In this document: positions 39,260-64,000 of the stretch, in pieces
How positions within the stretch are numbered: the first letter of the stretch is position 1
Layout of the letters: every line of letters starts with the position of its first letter
Assembly: GCA_001029295.1 (NCBI GenBank)
Contig: LDXJ01000064.1
Location: 434,001-498,000, forward strand
From: Peptococcaceae bacterium CEB3
GTDB lineage: Bacteria > Bacillota > Desulfitobacteriia > Desulfitobacteriales > Desulfitobacteriaceae
Reading direction: 5' to 3'
Length of the DNA stretch: 64,000 nt
Notes under the pieces: model-generated
Seen by the model: the letters and a program-made list of their open reading frames with translations, nothing else
What the model was told of the DNA's origin: nothing
Databases searched by the model: none
Position numbers and translations under genes: made by a program

Positions 39260-39808
39260 ATGATTACCGTTTATACGGGAAACGGCAAAGGAAAGACCAC
39301 TTCCGCCCTGGGCGCGGCCCTCGCGGCCCGGGGAGAGGGGAAAAAGGTTATCATGCTTCAGTTTCTCAAAGGGAGCACCTACAGCGGGGAGCTGACCGGT
39401 CTGTACCGATTGGGCATTCCCCTGCTTCAGTTTGGCGTGGGATGCCGCTGGGCGGCCATGATCCGCACCGGTTTCAGGCATTGCACAGGCTGCGGTGAGT
39501 GCTTCCGGGACAACCGCAACCCTGCCCTGGCCACCGAATTTGTTGAAACGGCCTTTCAATTTCTCTCCGGACTGGCACCCCGTGAATACGACCTTATCAT
39601 TCTCGACGAAGTCAGCCATGCTCTCAACTACGGCTTTTTGCCCATGGATAAATTACTGCACCTCCTGACTGGGCCGGGGGACTGGATTTTGACGGGGCGG
39701 AGAATGCCGGATGAACTTATTCCCTGGGCGGATGAATGGTGGGAGCTGCGGGCCAAGAAACATCCCTTGGCCCGCGGAATCCAAAGCCGAAGGGGGATCG
39801 AGTACTGA
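39260..39808 (+). CDS. cobA: Cob(I)alamin adenosyltransferase, CobA/BtuR type
   Basis: Transfers the adenosyl group to cobalt. It is 182 residues with the P-loop VYTGNGKGKTTSALG at the N-terminus and LIILDEVSHALNYGF. ATG 39260 is chosen; the frame is open far upstream inside cbiA, but the conserved protein begins here. Compared with E. coli BtuR it carries an extra Cys stretch, HCTGCGECFRDNRN (about residues 73-86), which could bind a metal or cluster. Its stop overlaps the next start (TGATG). Confidence 0.92.
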   Translation: MITVYTGNGKGKTTSALGAALAARGEGKKVIMLQFLKGSTYSGELTGLYRLGIPLLQFGVGCRWAAMIRTGFRHCTGCGECFRDNRNPALATEFVETAFQFLSGLAPREYDLIILDEVSHALNYGFLPMDKLLHLLTGPGDWILTGRRMPDELIPWADEWWELRAKKHPLARGIQSRRGIEY

Positions 39809-40710
39809 TGGGTCCGACGGCTTGGGCACGATGTCCCGGCACCTGCGGAGAATGGGTGCAAGGGGCGCGATCCGGGATTCCTTTTCTGGTAGATTGCCCC
39901 ATTGACCAATACGCGGAAGCGGTCGTTGAAGTGGGGGAAGACAGCGGGAACTGGCTCGTGCCCGGGGAGAAGGAAAAGGTGAGAAAGGCCCTGCTCCTGA
40001 TGAGGGAAGAGCGCGGTTTTTCCGGCGGCGGAATTCTCCGCTTCCGCCGAGAACTGCCGACCGGCAAAGGAATGGCGAGTTCGACCGCAGACATTGTCTC
40101 GGCCTGTGCGGCCGTCGCCGCGGCCTTAGGCGAAGCGGTTTCCGGTCGCAATCTGGCCCGCTGGGCTTTCGGCATAGAACCCAGTGACAGTGTCATGTAC
40201 CCCGGTTTGACTGAGATTAACCATATCCGGGGCAGTTATCATCAGACACTGGGAGCCGCGGTTCCGGCCGGGTTTCTGGCTCTGGACTGGGGCGGGGAAG
40301 TGGACACCCTCCGTTTCAACGCCCGGGCTGATTTGTACGGCCACTACCGCAAACACGAGTTTACCATCAGCAGGGCCTTGGCTTTAGTCAGAGAAGGGAT
40401 CAAAGGCGGAGACCTGGAAAAGATGGCGGCTGGGTCCACCTTAAGTGCTGAATGTAATCTGGAGGTTAACCCCAAACCTTTTTTTACTGAATTTAAGACG
40501 TGGGTCAGGTCCCGGGGAGGCTTGGGGCTGGTCACGGCCCACAGCGGTACCCTGATCGCGGGAGTATTTCCGCCGGACTATGCCTTGGACAGCTTGCTGG
40601 CGGAAGCAAAGGAACGCTTTGGGCCGGTCTTTGCCGAGACCTTCCGGGCCAGAGGCGGGGGAGTGGAGTATGCCGCGATTCCCCGCGTGCAGGCGGTTCC
40701 GTCTGATTAA
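39808..40710 (+). CDS. L-threonine kinase of the GHMP family (PduX-like)
   Basis: Makes O-phospho-L-threonine, which feeds the CobD decarboxylase below and so the aminopropanol arm. It is 300 residues. The start ARCPGTCGEWVQG is the PduX hallmark, and PTGKGMASSTADIVSA is the GHMP phosphate loop. The ATG at 39808 overlaps the cobA stop and AAGGGGGATCG precedes it. A longer frame upstream is not needed. Its place between cobA and cobD fits the pathway. Confidence 0.9.
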   Translation: MGPTAWARCPGTCGEWVQGARSGIPFLVDCPIDQYAEAVVEVGEDSGNWLVPGEKEKVRKALLLMREERGFSGGGILRFRRELPTGKGMASSTADIVSACAAVAAALGEAVSGRNLARWAFGIEPSDSVMYPGLTEINHIRGSYHQTLGAAVPAGFLALDWGGEVDTLRFNARADLYGHYRKHEFTISRALALVREGIKGGDLEKMAAGSTLSAECNLEVNPKPFFTEFKTWVRSRGGLGLVTAHSGTLIAGVFPPDYALDSLLAEAKERFGPVFAETFRARGGGVEYAAIPRVQAVPSD

Positions 40711-40940: not shown

Positions 40941-42059
40941 ATGCACGGCGGAAACATCTACCAGGCCAAAGAGCGTTACGGGCACACCCAGTTCATCGAT
41001 TTGTCCGCCAATATCAATCCTTTCGGACCGCCCGACGGGGTCTTGGAGCGTTTGGCCAGGAAGCTCGAGAGCATCGTTCACTATCCCGATCCGGACAGTG
41101 TCGCCTTGCGCGCCCGGATGAGCGAACTCTATCATCTGCCGTTTGAGAACATCATCTTGGGTAACGGGGCGGGGGAACTCCTCTTTACCATCCTCCAGGC
41201 CCTAAGACCCCGGCGGGTCCTGATCCCGCTGCCAGCGTTCAGTGAGTATCGGCGGGCGGCCGAGGCGGTCGGGGCCCTAGTGACTCCTTTTTTCCTGGGG
41301 GCGGAAGGATGGTCCAGCCTGCCCCTCCCGGAATCCGCCCAGGAGGCGGAGCGATTTGCTGAGAAGTGGCGCGGGCTTTTATCCGGACAGGACATCCTTT
41401 TCCTCTGCTCGCCGCACAACCCCACCGGCACGCTGTTGAACCGCAAGCAGTTTGAAATTCTCCTCGAAGTCGCTCATACCTGCGACTGCCGGGTGATTTT
41501 TGACGAATCATTCGTCGATTTCCTGCCGGATGAAAAGCGCTGGTCCGCCCGCGAGTACCTAGCCAGCTACTCCAACCTGACGGTCGTCTATTCTTTGACC
41601 AAGTTTTACAGCTTGCCCGGACTCCGCTTGGGGGCCGCCTTTGGCCCGGCCCGCGATCTTGAACGTTTCCAGGAGGCACGCGATCCCTGGTCGGTGAATG
41701 TCTTGGCTCAGGAGGCCGGTTTGGCCGCTTTGGAGAACCGAACTTACGCTGAGGACGTGCGGAAGAAGCTGACCGAATGCCGGAATTTCTTTTACTCGGA
41801 GTTTGAACGGCAAGAATTTGCGAATTGGCGGCTTAGACCGACGTGGGTGAATTTCGCTCTGCTGGAGCTGAGAACAGGAAAATCCGACCGTTTAACAGAA
41901 TCTTTGGGGGAACGGGGCATCCTCGTCCGCGACTGTTCGAACTTTGCGGGCTTAGAGGGGGAATCCGTCCGCATCGCCGTCAAGAAGGAGTCGGACATGG
42001 CGAAGCTGCTCTTGGCGCTCCGGGAAATAGAGGACGAGAGGAACTCTTTCAAAGCCTGA
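40941..42059 (+). CDS. cobD: L-threonine-O-3-phosphate decarboxylase
   Basis: A PLP enzyme making (R)-1-aminopropan-2-yl phosphate for CbiB. It is 372 residues, of the aminotransferase class I/II fold (HisC-like). It opens with MHGGNIYQAKERYG and FIDLSANINPFGPP, typical of CobD. The PLP lysine is in YSLTKFYSLPGLRLG (about residue 220). AGGGAGGG precedes ATG 40941. It closes the cobalamin operon; a strong terminator follows at 42241. Confidence 0.94.
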   Translation: MHGGNIYQAKERYGHTQFIDLSANINPFGPPDGVLERLARKLESIVHYPDPDSVALRARMSELYHLPFENIILGNGAGELLFTILQALRPRRVLIPLPAFSEYRRAAEAVGALVTPFFLGAEGWSSLPLPESAQEAERFAEKWRGLLSGQDILFLCSPHNPTGTLLNRKQFEILLEVAHTCDCRVIFDESFVDFLPDEKRWSAREYLASYSNLTVVYSLTKFYSLPGLRLGAAFGPARDLERFQEARDPWSVNVLAQEAGLAALENRTYAEDVRKKLTECRNFFYSEFERQEFANWRLRPTWVNFALLELRTGKSDRLTESLGERGILVRDCSNFAGLEGESVRIAVKKESDMAKLLLALREIEDERNSFKA

Positions 42060-42240
42060 TGACGTGTAAAGTTGACAGTTGGCAGACGCAACCTAAAGAT
42101 TAGCGCCTGTTATCTTGTAGTCGGCACGGAGGTAGATGACGAACATATTGCCTTGGACAGAGCGCGTCGAGACAATCGTCCTGCTGCAAAACTGTCAGAG
42201 ATCAGGGGCGGTCAACAGGACAATTTCATAGATGAAACCA

Positions 42241-56580: not shown

Positions 56581-56744
56581 GTCGTGGCGAATTGTGCATG
56601 AATATACATGAACTTCCTGACTGTGAAATATAGGCCTGTGCACAAGCACTACCACCGCCCGAAAGGAAGAACGCTGGCAGTGGAAATTTATGAAACGTCG
56701 TGGAAGTGGCTGTATGGCAGGTTCGACATAAAGGAAAGGTCTTC

Positions 56745-56815
56745 TTGACACGGTGGTGTACTTTGACTATAATAGGCATATACAATCGTTCCAAACGCGA
56801 CGAACGTACCGTACG
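56745..56815 (+). promoter_or_regulatory. Consensus sigma-A promoter with downstream palindrome
   Basis: TTGACA (56745-56750), 17 bases, TATAAT (56768-56773): a perfect consensus, which predicts strong transcription unless repressed. CGTAC-C-GTACG at 56805-56815, about 25 bases past the expected start site, is a candidate operator for the GbsR-type protein downstream. Confidence 0.9.
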
Positions 56816-56848
56816 ATACAAACGAGTGGAGTGAAAGGAGAGAATATA

Positions 56849-57397
56849 ATGGTACAAATATCGTTTGCTGAACTCCGTGAACAATATGCGGACTATTTTG
56901 CGCGGGCAGCTTCAATTTACAATGTTAATCCTCTTCTAGGCCGTCTTTATGCCTATCTGCTGCTTTCACCTCAGCCCATGAGCCTGGGCGAGCTTGCCAC
57001 AACTGCAGGAGCAGCAAAAAGCACAGTGAGTGTAGTGATACGTACACTTGAACACTATCGATTAGTAGACCGACAACTGGTTAAAGGAGATCGGCGTGAC
57101 TATTTTACTGCGCGCACGGACTCCGCTCTGATGTTGCGGGAATTATACGATCTCTTCTTTTCCAGGGAACTAAAATATTATGAAGCTGCTAACAAAACGG
57201 CCCGGCAGGCTCTTGAGACAGCACCTATAGAAGGTGACTGGCCGGACCAAGAACAGCGAGCGCTATTGATAAGAAGGATGACGCAGTTAGAATCATTTGT
57301 TAATGTAATGGGTGACTTGCTTAAACAATTTATGAATGCTTCCGACAAGCCGGTGTCACCCGTGGAAATCATCCCAATTGAGGTAGAAAATGAGTAA
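56849..57397 (+). CDS. GbsR/MarR-family transcriptional regulator
   Basis: A 182-residue winged-helix regulator. The HTH reads LGELATTAGAAKSTVSVVIRTLEHYRLV and the wing KGDRRDYFTA. The length and the N-terminal helices fit the GbsR family. The frame is open 96 bases upstream without a start signal; ATG 56849 follows AAAGGAG. The last eight bases overlap the ArsA-like gene, so the two form one operon. It probably represses its own strong promoter. Confidence 0.9.
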   Translation: MVQISFAELREQYADYFARAASIYNVNPLLGRLYAYLLLSPQPMSLGELATTAGAAKSTVSVVIRTLEHYRLVDRQLVKGDRRDYFTARTDSALMLRELYDLFFSRELKYYEAANKTARQALETAPIEGDWPDQEQRALLIRRMTQLESFVNVMGDLLKQFMNASDKPVSPVEIIPIEVENE

Positions 57398-58595: not shown

Positions 58596-58692
58596 TAGCG
58601 TTCCGAATTATCGTCAGAAGGAAAGCGAATGGGTTGCTGCTTGCAGGGGAAAATAAAGCAAGAGCCTAATAAGGATGAAGGAATGGTTTTCA

Positions 58693-59109
58693 ATGAAAGT
58701 CCTTGTTCTTTATTTTAGTGGTACAGGAAATACGGAGTATGTTGCAAAATATCTACAAAAGAGATTATTAGGTCCTTTACGTCAAATAGAGTTACGATCA
58801 ACTGAAAATACGTTACCGGAGAAGACTGCCGAATTTGATTTGCTGATAATTGGATTCCCGATTTATGCGGGGGCACCTCCGGAGTTTTTCGGCCAATATC
58901 TTAAATTGTTGCCTACTGTCAATCAAAAAGGAGTATTTGTTTTTTGCACAAGAGCTATGTTCGCAGGACATGCAATTAAAGATGTTTATGAATTGTTAGA
59001 ACACAAAGGGTATATTCCATTAGGCCATAGAATCGTTGCAATGCCAGGTTCGGACGGACTTCCTTTTATGCGTAAAAATTCGACCAGGGGAAAAATATTC
59101 AAAGCATGA
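58693..59109 (+). CDS. Flavodoxin-like protein
   Basis: The FMN-binding part of an EFR1-type flavodoxin/ferredoxin. It opens KVLVLYFSGTGNTEYVAKYL, the flavodoxin phosphate loop, then LLIIGFPIYAGAPPEF. It ends early after AMPGSDGLPF, at 138 residues. Earlier starts exist (58675), but ATG 58693 has AAGGAATGG before it. It ends in ATGA, overlapping the ferredoxin gene; in related proteins the two parts are one chain. Confidence 0.85.
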   Translation: MKVLVLYFSGTGNTEYVAKYLQKRLLGPLRQIELRSTENTLPEKTAEFDLLIIGFPIYAGAPPEFFGQYLKLLPTVNQKGVFVFCTRAMFAGHAIKDVYELLEHKGYIPLGHRIVAMPGSDGLPFMRKNSTRGKIFKA

Positions 59110-59420
59110 GTAAGAAAGCACCAGAAGGAATTCCGCTGCTAAACATAGTCTTTCAATTTCTCTGGGATATTGGATATAAACTTGCAGAAAAGAAGATTAA
59201 ACCCCGGTTTAGGGCAGATGATAAGTGTATTCGATGTGGACTTTGTGTCAAACAGTGTCCAGCAAAAAATATATCCTTAAAAAATGGATCCATCACTTTT
59301 GATAAACATTGTTATATGTGCATGCGATGTATTAATCAATGTCCGAATGAAGCCATACAAATAGGAAAATGGACTATAAACAAGTTTCGTTGGAAAGGGC
59401 CAATGGGCCCGTATAACTGA
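59106..59420 (+). CDS. Two-[4Fe-4S] ferredoxin
   Basis: A 104-residue ferredoxin with CIRCGLCVKQCPAKNI and CYMCMRCINQCPNEAI, two [4Fe-4S] sites. A hydrophobic N-terminal stretch (IPLLNIVFQFLWDIGY) is joined to them. The start overlaps the flavodoxin stop in ATGA, so the two are made together and should form an electron-transfer pair. As the pair is usually fused, either the split is native or a frameshift separated them. Confidence 0.88.
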   Translation: MSKKAPEGIPLLNIVFQFLWDIGYKLAEKKIKPRFRADDKCIRCGLCVKQCPAKNISLKNGSITFDKHCYMCMRCINQCPNEAIQIGKWTINKFRWKGPMGPYN

Positions 59421-59490
59421 TTTAGCAAAGGTAGATGCTTTCCTTTATAATCGGATGCCGCCGGGCTGCGCGTGATTTGGGAGGATTACA

Positions 59491-60009
59491 ATGGCGAAGA
59501 AAATCTTGTTATTTGCTCCGATGGCTTTCAACCTTGCAGAGACCACCCGTATGATCGAGATTGCAAAAGGGATCGCCCATCATGATACGGCGAGCAAAGT
59601 GTTCGACATTCAGTTCATGTCTGACGGTGGGGAGTTTGAGGGATTGATTGAGGAGCAGCATTTTCCGCTCCATAGGATGGAGCCGCGCTTGACGCCCGAG
59701 AAGATTGAGCATCTCTTGAAAGTCGACAAAGCCGAGAAATTTGCTCCGTCTTTTTCTGTTCAAGAAATCAGTGAGCGGATAGAAAATGAGGTGAAATACG
59801 TCAGGCAACTGAAACCGGCAGCCGTGATCACCGGGTTTTACATGACGATCCCACTGACGTGCCGGATCGCGCACATCCCGCTGGTCTGGGTCATCCAGTC
59901 TACTTGGCTTCCGGAATTCTTTTTGCACGGGGCTGGTATGACGGATCGCCTCACCTTCAAACCCGTCAAATGGAGTGGCAGCGCTGCTTGCATTGGATTT
60001 TTCTATTAA
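59491..60009 (+). pseudogene. Glycosyltransferase N-terminal half, truncated
   Basis: Reads like the N-terminal domain of GT28/UGT-type glycosyltransferases: FAPMAFNLAETTRMIEIAKG, LIEEQHFPLHRMEPRLTPEKIE, AAVITGFYMTIPL, IPLVWVIQ. GGGAGG precedes ATG 59491. It ends at 172 residues after FKPVKWSGSAACIGFFY, so the nucleotide-sugar half is lost; a terminator-like hairpin follows at once. It lies at the edge of the foreign mosaic that begins near 60160. Confidence 0.75.
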
Positions 60010-60046
60010 TTAACAGAAAATGTTTCAAAAAGGATACGACTAAAAT

Positions 60047-60084
60047 GCCGGCCGGGGTTGAGATAACTTCGACCGGCTGAGTCT
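60047..60084 (+). terminator. Hairpin after the truncated glycosyltransferase
   Basis: GCCGGCCG (60047-60054) pairs with CGACCGGC (60070-60077) with one mismatch, then TGAGTCTTTT. It fits a native Firmicute terminator. Confidence 0.7.
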
Positions 60085-60207
60085 TTTAACAAGTGAATTT
60101 ACAAATCTACTTGCTACTTACTGAATCTCCTACTATCTATCCTCTGCTATTTAATTCTCAGGTGATGGCCAGGGTGACCGCGTGATCAGGGTAATGAGTG
60201 TGATGCC

Positions 60208-60399
60208 GTGAGATGCCGACGCACCCTGCGTGCCATTACGGCACTGGCCACAGTCCAAGTCGTGACGGGCATCTACGTCTACAACACTTTGCCCTTCGGA
60301 CAGTGGTTCGGTCCGACACTGGCCGCAGTCGGCCTGACCACAGGTGTCTTCGGCTACAAGCTCGTGCAGCAGGGCATCGAGCTGAAGTCGGCCACATGA
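60208..60399 (+). CDS. Small two-segment membrane protein of phage-like, high-GC origin
   Basis: A 63-residue protein with two hydrophobic segments (LATVQVVTGIYVYNTLPF and GPTLAAVGLTTGVFGYKLV). The GTG start overlaps the stop of a truncated upstream frame (ATGCCGTGA), the dense packing typical of phages. The GC-rich codons and the terminator style differ from all genes before 60100. It could be a phage small membrane protein. It begins just inside the mosaic segment. Confidence 0.55.
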   Translation: MRCRRTLRAITALATVQVVTGIYVYNTLPFGQWFGPTLAAVGLTTGVFGYKLVQQGIELKSAT

Positions 60400-60414
60400 T
60401 CTACCTAGCGCAAC

Positions 60415-60446
60415 GGCCCCCGAGTTCCTCGGGGGCCTGTTCTTTT
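60415..60446 (+). terminator. GC-rich rho-independent terminator
   Basis: GGCCCCCGAG (60415-60424) pairs with CTCGGGGGCC (60428-60437), then TGTTCTTTTT. The very GC-rich stem is of the actinobacterial or phage style. Confidence 0.92.
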
Positions 60447-60499
60447 TGGGCGCTTCCGGGTTTTCCGTGGTTTAGCTCTGGTCTGGGCGGGCCGATCCG

Positions 60500-60837
60500 C
60501 GTCAGGCCCAGGATGTGGTGTCACCGCATCGGCACGGTGCTGACGGTGATGGTGGTGGCTGTGTTGGCCGGCGCACGAAACTTCCGAGAGATCGCCGATC
60601 GGGCGGCTAGGCTGCCCTCGGAGCTGTTGACGTTGGCTGGCCTGATCCAACGACTCCCGCACAGCAACCACTACCAACTCACCTCCGACGACATCCGGAT
60701 CGCCGTGCTCTACGCCGAGGTCCACAGCTGGCTATCGTCCCGCTTACGGCAGCCGATCAACCCAGGCCCCACCCGAAATCCGGGCCGCGCTACGCTCGCT
60801 CGATCGCCACGTCATCGGCTGCATCGACCAAGCCTGA
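60500..60837 (+). pseudogene. Decayed transposase-like fragment
   Basis: Pieces in shifting frames: HRIGTVLTVMVVAVLAGARN and FREIADRAARLPSEL, which resemble the start of ISAs1-type DDE transposases, then, after frameshifts, PEIRAALRSLDRHVIGCIDQA before a stop at 60837. No start, no catalytic triad and no terminal repeats are seen. High GC. Confidence 0.4.
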
Positions 60838-60917
60838 CTGAAAGCAGCAGCCTGAAACGTGACACAAATGTGAAGAAAGCCGCGCCCAAAAAGATCGCTA
60901 GTATACAACAAGCGGGA

Positions 60918-61592
60918 TCAATTAGCGCTCTGACGGCGACGCAGTAACATAACGCCGAATCCAATTGCCCAGAGCGCAAGTGGATATGCGCCCACGCGCT
61001 GCCAACCGCCATACCCGAGTCCTATATATGGCGGCGTGCCCGACATGATAATTCCAACAAAGCCCATGACACCCGCAAGGAGCGTTATCCAACCGAATAG
61101 CCGATGTGTCTTTATGGCCCCGCTGCCGAGTAAGATCAGACCGAGGTTCTGCGCAAAGAACTGAACGCTTGCCGCGACTTCATGTACCGTAAGCGCACTG
61201 TTGCCTGGCGCAAACCCAGCGACTGCTATGCACAAACCTGCCAAGGCGACTAGAAACACGCCAGTACTCGCCAACTTACGTCGCGGCCAAAATGATCGCG
61301 TGAGAAGGATCCCACAGAATATGAGCAGACCGTAGATTACGAAAGTAACATTCATAACCGCGTGAAATGGCGAACAGGCGACTATCGTCTGATGCGTGGT
61401 CGGATTCGTAAACGGCCCACACGTCGTTACCCCCAGCTCGCTGACAGCGTCATTTCGCAGGCTGTAGGGGGTCCTCATGCCTATTTGGGTGATGCCCTGT
61501 CCGATGAAGTACCAGATGACCAAGACAAGTAGTACTGCTCCTGCTCGAAAACTTAGCCCTTTCGTCGTTGATACGGTATTGGCTTTTCTCAT
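60918..61592 (-). CDS. DUF998-family membrane protein
   Basis: A 224-residue protein with about six hydrophobic segments. VSELGVTTCGPFTNPTT and SPFHAVMNVTFVIYGLLIF are DUF998-like. The ribosome site before ATG 61592 is weak (AAGAAAG). Its GC content and codons differ both from the native genes and from the phage-like parts of the segment. It is intact. The neighbours are fragments, so it gives no context. Confidence 0.65.
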   Translation of the reverse strand: MRKANTVSTTKGLSFRAGAVLLVLVIWYFIGQGITQIGMRTPYSLRNDAVSELGVTTCGPFTNPTTHQTIVACSPFHAVMNVTFVIYGLLIFCGILLTRSFWPRRKLASTGVFLVALAGLCIAVAGFAPGNSALTVHEVAASVQFFAQNLGLILLGSGAIKTHRLFGWITLLAGVMGFVGIIMSGTPPYIGLGYGGWQRVGAYPLALWAIGFGVMLLRRRQSAN

Positions 61593-61780
61593 TCAGCTTT
61601 CTTACGAGTCGCCCGTCTTACTCGCTGCTCCTTTCCATTTGGTTTTTTATCAACATTCGGGATCTTATTTACTATAATAACACGTCTGGACGATGAGGAG
61701 CAAGATTGATCCGAGGGCGCGGTGAACCCGCTTGGCTCAGCTACGCTTCCTGAATCGCCATGACCAGTACCTATGACGGA

Positions 61781-62281
61781 TTACGATCCGGGAATATCGC
61801 CGGCTAAGAGTATTAGTATTTGCAAGTCGCTTTCGTTGAACCCGGCAGCCCGCTCGAAGACGTCCCACAATTCGCGGTAGGTCCGTGCATTCTTCACAAG
61901 TTCTGCAATTGGTAAGCCGAGTTCTGGCTTACAGCTTAAAACCGCTACCTGGTCTGTGTCTACGGACGACAAGCCCAACTCGTACAAGCTGCAAAGTTCA
62001 CCTCGTGATACGACGCCGCGAAACTTACGGCGGCGCATCTTCACACCTTCCACACGACACGATTTCGTTGGTGGCACAACTGGCACGTAACTGCCGACTT
62101 TCACCACGTCAACCAAACCGCCGAAAATGATCTGAGACGGCTCACCACCGGGCGCATACACCACATCCGCTATGCGGATACGCTCAGCGTTGGGGTGAAG
62201 CCGGGTAGCTATGACTCTGCCAACAACAACGCCGACCGCGGTAAGCAGACTTTCTGGTGCAGTTGTGGCAATTTGTGGCAT
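61781..62281 (-). CDS. OB-fold tRNA-binding-domain protein (PheT N-terminal-like)
   Basis: A 166-residue protein. The N-terminal part, VGVVVGRVIATRLHPNAERI and IIFGGLVDVVKVGSYVPVV, is the EMAP-II/PheT-type OB-fold that binds tRNA or other nucleic acid. The C-terminal 55 residues are not recognised. No good ribosome site is seen before ATG 62281. It is much shorter than PheT (about 800), so it is a stand-alone domain or a fragment. Confidence 0.6.
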   Translation of the reverse strand: MPQIATTAPESLLTAVGVVVGRVIATRLHPNAERIRIADVVYAPGGEPSQIIFGGLVDVVKVGSYVPVVPPTKSCRVEGVKMRRRKFRGVVSRGELCSLYELGLSSVDTDQVAVLSCKPELGLPIAELVKNARTYRELWDVFERAAGFNESDLQILILLAGDIPGS

Positions 62282-62408
62282 GCTATCGATTATATCCTAG
62301 GTATCTATTTGACCAAGCATATAGATTCACGCGCGTTGTGTCCGGGCATTGCCTTGGGTGTGGATATCAGTGAAGCGTTGCGGTATGGCGTCTATCGACT
62401 TCGGCGTC

Positions 62409-63145
62409 CTATGCCCCGTTCCACACATACTGGCTGATCAACGGGCCAGGATAGGCATCCGACCGGACCATGATTTCATCGAAGATCACGTCGTGGGTAG
62501 TCGGCGACACCGGGTTAGACATGGGACCCCACTCCAGGTAGTCGATCAGGCCGGTGGCCATGGGCGCGGTGATCGTTTCGGTGGGTGTGGTCGAGGGCAG
62601 GTTCGCACCCAGGTAGATGTTCAGCGTCTGCGTACCGGAGGAGCCCACCTTCCACTCCAGCCGGAACCACTGCCCGGCCGTCACTGCGGACACGTTTTGG
62701 TGGCCTGGACGGTGTTGGACCCGTCCTCCAGCTCGAGATGACTGCCCCCGCTGGTGCTAGCGATCTGTACCCGGGCCAGGTGTGTACCGTTGATGCCACC
62801 GTTCTTCGCCGTCAGGATCGGCACCGGGCTGGAAGCGAGTGTGGGAATCTGGACGTATTGCCGTACGTACGCCGTGGCAAGCGAGGATGGCAGGGCCTTG
62901 CCCCAGAAGGCGTAGGCGCCAGTGCCCGCGGGCAACGCGATCTGACCGGCGCGGCCACCGTCCACACCGCCCGACACGAACGTTGCCGCCGATGAGGTGG
63001 TGTAGTTGTCGGAACCGTCACCGGGATTGTTCGTGAAGTTGGTGGTCGTCTTGTCCGCGACCGCCCCGACCGTGCCGTTGAACGACTCGGTGAACACCGC
63101 CGGCCCCAATGCCGTGACGATAGGGCTGAATAGAAACTTTCCCAA
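62409..63145 (-). pseudogene. Phage tail-like/LamG-type surface protein, frameshifted
   Basis: Two frames form one protein: the first (from about 63130 down to 62681) has FNGTVGAVADKTTTNF, GAYAFWGKALPSSLATAYVR and SGGSHLELEDGSNTVQATK; the second (62693-62409) goes on VSAVTAGQWFRLEWKVGS to YVWNGA. One base is missing at an A run near 62694; restoring it joins the frames. The style is that of actinobacterial-phage tail proteins. The 5' end is cut at the junction with AT-rich native DNA near 63135, so the gene has no true start. Confidence 0.6.
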
Positions 63146-63243
63146 TGAGTTTTCACTTGACTTATCACATAATTGGACTTAGTATAATATTAATCATAGG
63201 ATAAGATCTAGAATGATAAAATTGACTTAAGGGGAATATAGGA

Positions 63244-63837
63244 ATGAATAGAAGAGAACGCAAAAAAGAAGAAACGAGAAAAAACATCATATCTTGTGCG
63301 GTACGACTTTTCAAAGAGAAAAGTTTCCAGGAAACCCTCGTCGACGAAATTTCCGAAAACGCCGATGTGTCCAAAGGGACCCTGTATAACTATTTTCCGG
63401 ACAAAGAATCCATCTTAGTTGATTATTTTCAATTGATCATTGCCGACTATGGTAAGAGAATTAAAGAAAGCCTCATGGTAAAGAATGTCATAGAGGTAAA
63501 ACTGAATAAACTTCTCAATTTGATGAATGAAATATTCGCAAACGATCTTGAACTAACAACTGTTTACTTCAAATACAGGATGCAGAAGTTTTTCGATACC
63601 GATCCTTTTGACAATTCTCGCCGAAGCGGTCTGGAAAACCTTGTTCTTGCAATCATTAAGGATGCTCAGGATAACTATGAACTGAGGAGTGACATACCTG
63701 CCTTAGTCATAGCGCGCGCCTTTCTGATATTGACAATGGATTTTTTCATATTAAACCTAGCCAGAAAAGGATCTAATGAAACAGAAAATACGAATCGCCA
63801 GTTGCTGAACCTTTTTCTCGATGGGGCCAGGCCATAA
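63244..63837 (+). CDS. TetR-family transcriptional regulator
   Basis: A 197-residue regulator. The HTH is TLVDEISENADVSKGTLYNYFPDKESIL (about residues 30-57). AAGGGG precedes ATG 63244. It lies 40 bases before a PEP-synthase-like gene, which it probably controls, and marks the return to AT-rich native sequence. A TATAAT at 63183 with a TTGACT 20 bases before it is a poor promoter by spacing. Confidence 0.92.
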   Translation: MNRRERKKEETRKNIISCAVRLFKEKSFQETLVDEISENADVSKGTLYNYFPDKESILVDYFQLIIADYGKRIKESLMVKNVIEVKLNKLLNLMNEIFANDLELTTVYFKYRMQKFFDTDPFDNSRRSGLENLVLAIIKDAQDNYELRSDIPALVIARAFLILTMDFFILNLARKGSNETENTNRQLLNLFLDGARP

Positions 63838-63877
63838 TTGGTTTGGCAGCGTGTAAAAAATAATAGGGGGATTTAGC

Positions 63878-64000
63878 ATGGAGAAATATGTTCTCCAATT
63901 TCAGGCAATTGATAAATCTTCTCTGTTTTATGTCGGAGGGAAAGGCGCGAACCTTGGCGAGATGACCAAAGCGGGTTTTCCCGTTCCCAAAGGTTTTTGT
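63878..64000 (+). CDS. PEP synthase / rifampin phosphotransferase-type protein, 3' partial
   Basis: Only the first 41 codons are in the window. They read as the PEP/pyruvate-binding N-terminal domain: YVLQFQAIDKSS, then VGGKGANLGEMTKAGFPVPKGFC, a motif shared by PpsA and rifampin phosphotransferase (Rph). AGGGGG lies 10 bases before ATG 63878. The rest is needed to tell the two apart; Rph also begins with a YVL-F-E/A type stretch. Confidence 0.85.
   Translation, partial: MEKYVLQFQAIDKSSLFYVGGKGANLGEMTKAGFPVPKGFC

Follow-up and report, generated by a model that had tools for sequence, protein, structure and literature searches.

Does a short run of foreign-looking DNA, embedded among ordinary native genes, record an event in the life of a bacterial chromosome or a fault in its draft assembly? 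The window analyzed here is a whole stretch of 64,000 bases on the plus strand of one contig of 585,839 bases (G000:C64:434001–498000), which belongs to an assembly of 5.31 Mb in 64 contigs (98.48% complete, 2.45% contamination). The stretch in question extends over ~2.97 kb from 60160 to ~63130 of the window, contains no N, occurs once in the genome, and is surrounded by ordinary native genes, e.g., those for cobalamin and flavodoxin. Coordinates refer to the window unless a contig is named. The ends of contigs C9–C20 and C61–C64 overlap one another by 250–880 bp with 93–100% identity, which indicates that the assembly broke in repeats.

Composition and Anatomy of the Mosaic

At the level of the sequence, the mosaic is confirmed. 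Maximum-likelihood segmentation of G+C content in the region 59430–63850 places breaks at 60160, 60835, 62490, and 63120–63130, with an additional break at 59985 that lies within native DNA, and the G+C contents of the successive segments from left to right are.514,.36,.634,.527,.653, and.28–.40. The three foreign blocks (A, B, and C; Table 1) also have distinct GC3 values (.75,.55–.56, and.81–.84, respectively). In a scan of GC-adjusted 5-mers over 1.81 Mb of the genome, contig positions 493901–497201 rank second in length among the atypical runs (mean z of −3.4 over 29 windows); the longest coincides with a large open reading frame (C63:257–262 kb), and most of the other runs that were inspected correspond to native genes whose long frames are intact. 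In a 4-mer test, each 400-base window of the mosaic falls in the lowest ~15%. No second foreign mosaic was detected by composition in the 1.81 of 5.31 Mb scanned, with the small contigs C1–C8 (528–2,644 bp) masked.

The original prediction, made from the letters alone, described a foreign mosaic with changing composition, and both the segmentation and the 5-mer scan agree with it. The G+C profile that it had called for runs.36,.634,.527,.653, and.28–.40 across the four breaks, and the resumption of native AT-rich DNA, which it had placed near 63150, corresponds to the drop from.653 to.28–.40 at 63120–63130. Two of its internal breaks are not confirmed. The minus-strand genes on either side of 61700 share GC and GC3, and six-frame reading reveals a short reading frame between the OB-fold gene and the DUF998 gene whose stop overlaps the DUF998 start, which makes a break at that position unlikely; likewise, no break falls exactly at 62300, the block C gene stopping at 62409. 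Composition therefore gives three blocks, not five, and these blocks are random-looking gene fragments or small gene pairs, each in its own orientation.

Table 1. Features of the mosaic and its native flanks (window coordinates)
Feature	Position	Strand	Basis or remarks
Truncated glycosyltransferase-like ORF, native, 172 aa, C-terminal part missing	59491..60009	+	Assignment of the original prediction
Terminator-type hairpin with T-tail, last recognizable native feature on the left	60047..60077	+	Shared with other loci
Foreign block A	60160..60835 (right edge 60835–60917)	none	GC.63; G+C segmentation, 5-mer scan
63-aa membrane-like ORF	60208..60399	+	GC3.75; sub-threshold matches only
Decayed transposase remnant, ~100 aa, frameshifted	60528..60837	+	PF13808, tblastn
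Foreign block B	60836..62489	none	GC.53; G+C segmentation
DUF998 membrane-protein gene, intact, 224 aa	60918..61592	−	PF06197
166-aa protein with OB/tRNA-binding domain like the PheT N-terminus, intact	61781..62281	−	TIGR00472, PDB 6p8t
Foreign block C, 3′ part of one gene	62409..63130	−	GC.65, GC3.81–.84; ORFs 62681–63145 and 62409–62693
Native DNA resumes; promoter-like site 63157–63185	63131..63243	+	Segmentation; promoter scan 9 of 12
TetR-type regulator, native, intact	63244..63837	+	PF00440; relatives 45–48% identity

Gene Content of the Three Blocks

In block A, the 63-aa ORF is followed by a strong GC-rich terminator (60415–60437, terminator scan) and has no significant tblastn match in phages. 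The transposase-like sequence noted earlier as decayed is confirmed as such. Its N-terminal piece resembles DDE_Tnp_1_assoc (PF13808, E 9.8e-6, or about 1e-5, which is under the gathering cut-off), and its C-terminal part, split across two frames in tblastn, is similar to the C-terminal end of a hypothetical protein from a mycobacterium (Mycobacterium riyadhense plasmid, 47% identity, E 4e-10). Inside the block, the remnant is enclosed by a perfect inverted repeat of 13 bp (60441–60453 and 60882–60894), which suggests that block A extends to at least 60894. The search for an intact insertion sequence in the block yielded this ~100-aa remnant and the repeat around it only. From these mycobacterial relatives, at least one piece of the mosaic, block A, appears to be of actinobacterial type.

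Block B probably has its right edge at 62411 or close to it. On its minus strand are two intact genes with a total of 390 codons, and both assignments proposed for them are upheld. The DUF998 product matches PF06197 with 52.6 bits against a cut-off of 30, over positions 7–183 of 184. Its best plasmid relatives have 28–34% identity and are mostly from Actinomycetota; the gene is the sole DUF998 gene in this genome, and 198 other genomes of the phylum lack the family. The OB-fold product resembles the PheT N-terminus (TIGR00472, E 6.7e-14 over 17–130; PDB 6p8t, E 3.5e-9) and scores 26.6 with tRNA_bind, for which the cut-off is 27. Identification as a phenylalanyl-tRNA synthetase beta chain was rejected, as only the N-terminal OB region is present (51 versus 403 bits). 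A TATAAT motif precedes the ATG of the OB-fold gene by 7 bases (62281–62320, minus strand). In the source organism, this gene may be read from a leaderless mRNA, and block B as read here could express two small genes.

The gene in block C contains one frameshift near 62690 and is cut at the right native border. It has a weak match to phrog_2448, a family of unknown function (E 8e-4), belongs to no Pfam family, and gives nothing significant in tblastn against phages (best E 8). The labels "phage-like" and "tail-like" that had been attached to parts of the mosaic are accordingly weak, the best holin profile having an E value of 0.037.

Native Flanks and Borders

On the left, composition is native up to ~60000. 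The glycosyltransferase-like ORF, which has no Pfam or NCBIfam match, is separated from the foreign DNA by ~150 bp of AT-rich DNA that includes the terminator-type hairpin, and the foreign DNA begins ~80 bp past this hairpin. The glycosyltransferase was therefore not truncated by the insert, contrary to the original view of an island at a truncated glycosyltransferase gene. The hairpin is 87% identical over 38 bp to C64:433754–433791 (two copies in 1.81 Mb) and 89–90% identical to two places in the relative G008 (contigs 161 and 235). Its loop is conserved (GCCGGYCGGGGTTGAGRTRACTTCGACCGGC), and between loci and relatives the hairpins are more alike than a chance terminator would be. The idea of a 60-kb element bounded by the terminator copies at contig positions 433754 and 494042 was given up, because these are similar T-tailed hairpins that occur in G008 too and are not att sites. 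Farther to the left, a flavodoxin ORF (58675–59109) and a 4Fe-4S ferredoxin ORF (59106–59420) overlap by 4 bases. Domains of these two kinds frequently occur together in a single protein, and this pair may be a split gene.

On the right, the promoter-like site starts ~26 bp after native DNA resumes, and matches in such a scan are near chance level. The TetR-type regulator adjoins DNA matching the next gene in the relative G004; no relative showed the left and right flanks together. An imperfect 16-bp direct repeat is formed by 63120–63135 (ATAGGGCTGAATAGAA), exactly at the right foreign border, and 63238–63253 (ATAGGAATGAATAGAA), where the TetR gene begins, and may be due to chance. Neither native border falls in coding sequence, although coding DNA makes up ~89% of the contig (ORF estimate). 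Two independent false joints would both fall in non-coding DNA about once in eighty times, which is a rough argument and not a test.

Searches for Mobility Features, Relatives, and Donors

Searches of the mosaic with Pfam, PHROGs, and NCBIfam revealed no integrase or recombinase and no significant phage structural gene. There is no tRNA in the window, no direct repeat linking the two borders, no Rfam match in 59000–64000, and no defense gene (PADLOC). At the nucleotide level, blastn against 50,697 phage and 72,556 plasmid records gave nothing for the whole mosaic or for any block, and the 82 other genomes of the class gave just two short matches (23 and 45 bases, E ~8e-4), which are taken as chance. 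Peptide scans of IMG/VR with the ORFs of blocks A and C and the OB-fold protein found nothing. For a donor of block B, genome contigs were scanned with the DUF998 and OB-fold proteins together and, separately, with a degenerate motif based on the OB-fold protein; both scans were empty.

In the BLAST comparison of the pieces that had been proposed, protein relatives were obtained for block A (the M. riyadhense plasmid) and for DUF998 (plasmids), and nucleotide matches in phages and plasmids were not. The alternatives themselves, a foreign island or a chimera, had been rightly posed, except that an island in the usual sense is not supported for a segment in which the searches revealed neither an integrase or other mobility gene nor a tRNA or a direct repeat at the flanks.

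Insertions of Native DNA Near the Mosaic

To the right of the mosaic, the contig carries displaced scraps of its own DNA. A partial, frameshifted copy of the cobD gene of the window (41246–42065) is located at C64:500729–501548 with 95.7% identity and two indels, and is fused to 29 bp (source, 40647–40675) that come from 570 bp upstream in the source; the whole (C64:500701–501548) lies 3.6 kb to the right of the genes flanking the foreign block and 2.7 kb beyond the window end. Farther along, a 134-bp copy of 39398–39531 (C64:504611–504744, 98.5%) is adjoined by 149 bp resembling 56734–56882 (C64:504798–504946, 87%). These insertions of native DNA, 3.6–8 kb to the right of the mosaic, diverge from their sources by 1.5–13% and so are not simple assembly copies; they appear to be older illegitimate insertions. 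The region of 490–505 kb therefore looks like a place of earlier DNA-scrap insertion.

Origin of the Mosaic

The reading that we favor over a chimera, tentatively and with a probability of about 0.45, is that unrelated fragments were captured by end joining in the organism and that the mosaic is a scar of illegitimate recombination. The chromosome would have broken in non-coding DNA between the terminator of the glycosyltransferase and the TetR promoter. End joining by Ku and the ATP-dependent ligase would then have healed the break and, in doing so, taken up as filler three linear pieces of environmental DNA (~0.7, ~1.6, and ~0.7 kb) that are unrelated to one another, with one or more of actinobacterial type. 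The genome has what non-homologous end joining (NHEJ) requires of a host: a Ku gene is present at C25:518–1048 (E 1e-53), with an ATP-dependent DNA ligase gene directly downstream. End-joining capture would tie together what is seen in the sequence: the three-block anatomy, flanks that are non-coding, a segment without mobility features, a genome with NHEJ genes, and older native insertions nearby. It would place the joints in a living cell, with end joining as their maker, and would derive the fragments from different donors. As block B is intact over 390 codons, the insert is either much younger than the cobD copy, which has diverged by 4%, or raw contaminant sequence; if real, the insertion would be recent, and it is probably without a function of its own. 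A more specific form of this idea strikes us as rather unlikely: that a wild Negativicutes-type bacterium acquired at least three fragments from unrelated organisms in a single end-joining event, at a site where scraps are taken up again and again, so that natural filler DNA from several donors is seen here before decay.

A quite plausible competitor is an artifact, in which a chimeric clone or read, or gap filling, put contaminating environmental fragments between native DNA; the mosaic would then be absent from the organism, and positions 60160 and 63130 may not be neighbors in the real chromosome. The unrelated compositions, the gene fragments cut at borders (block C at the native joint), the lack of a mobile element, and the lack of the insert in relatives (82 other genomes of the class) all agree with such an origin, as does the state of the assembly, a draft of 64 contigs whose ends overlap in repeats. 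Contaminants would be most expected in the masked contigs C1–C8, the frameshift in block C is also what uncorrected reads of low coverage would leave, and chimerism has been flagged in about 5% of GenBank genomes by GUNC (PMC8201837). However, four successive false joints would be needed inside a 586-kb contig, with both native ends falling in non-coding DNA; rampant library chimerism would not leave the scanned 1.81 Mb with no other foreign mosaic; and the neighborhood holds diverged native scraps, which cannot be simple assembly copies. Misassembly is, moreover, rare relative to mis-binning according to GUNC (PMC8201837).

A common source for all three blocks, i.e., a mobile element, a prophage remnant, or part of a plasmid, acquired as a single segment and later eroded, is improbable. 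It would account for the transposase remnant with its inverted repeat in block A and for the PHROG match in block C, and blocks A and C are close enough in GC (.63 and.65) that they could share a donor; yet GC3 shifts between.75,.55–.56, and.81–.84 over blocks just hundreds of bases apart, and the segment has no integrase, att-like repeat, or known backbone. The phage and plasmid records, searched with the whole and with each block, and the IMG/VR scans also speak against it.

Significance and Comparison with Known Systems

If end-joining capture is real, the mosaic would show directly, at the level of the sequence, that end joining in bacteria can import short pieces of environmental DNA from distant donors without a mobile element, a route that has been proposed from experiments in Streptomyces and shown there with endogenous DNA only (PMC5869714). 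If it is an artifact, small multi-source chimeras can sit in very large contigs of a near-complete genome and be annotated as horizontally acquired genes, as would be the case for the only DUF998 gene of this genome.

The mosaic has the foreign composition and transposase remnant of genomic islands and prophage remnants, but, unlike them, lacks an integrase, a tRNA site, a flanking repeat, and genes that form a coherent set. With the chimeric contigs and contamination described by GUNC it shares unrelated composition within a genome contig, whereas the major error there is mis-binning of whole contigs and the mosaic is short and internal (PMC8201837). The nearest parallel to end-joining capture is NHEJ repair in Streptomyces ambofaciens, for which inserts of 30 bp to 18.8 kb have been shown and exogenous DNA has been proposed as a source (PMC5869714). 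Unrelated pieces are joined there at a break without homology, as they would be here, and both organisms have Ku and an ATP-dependent ligase; the documented Streptomyces inserts are endogenous (PMC5869714), whereas those here are foreign, comprise at least three pieces, and are read as repair from sequence alone.
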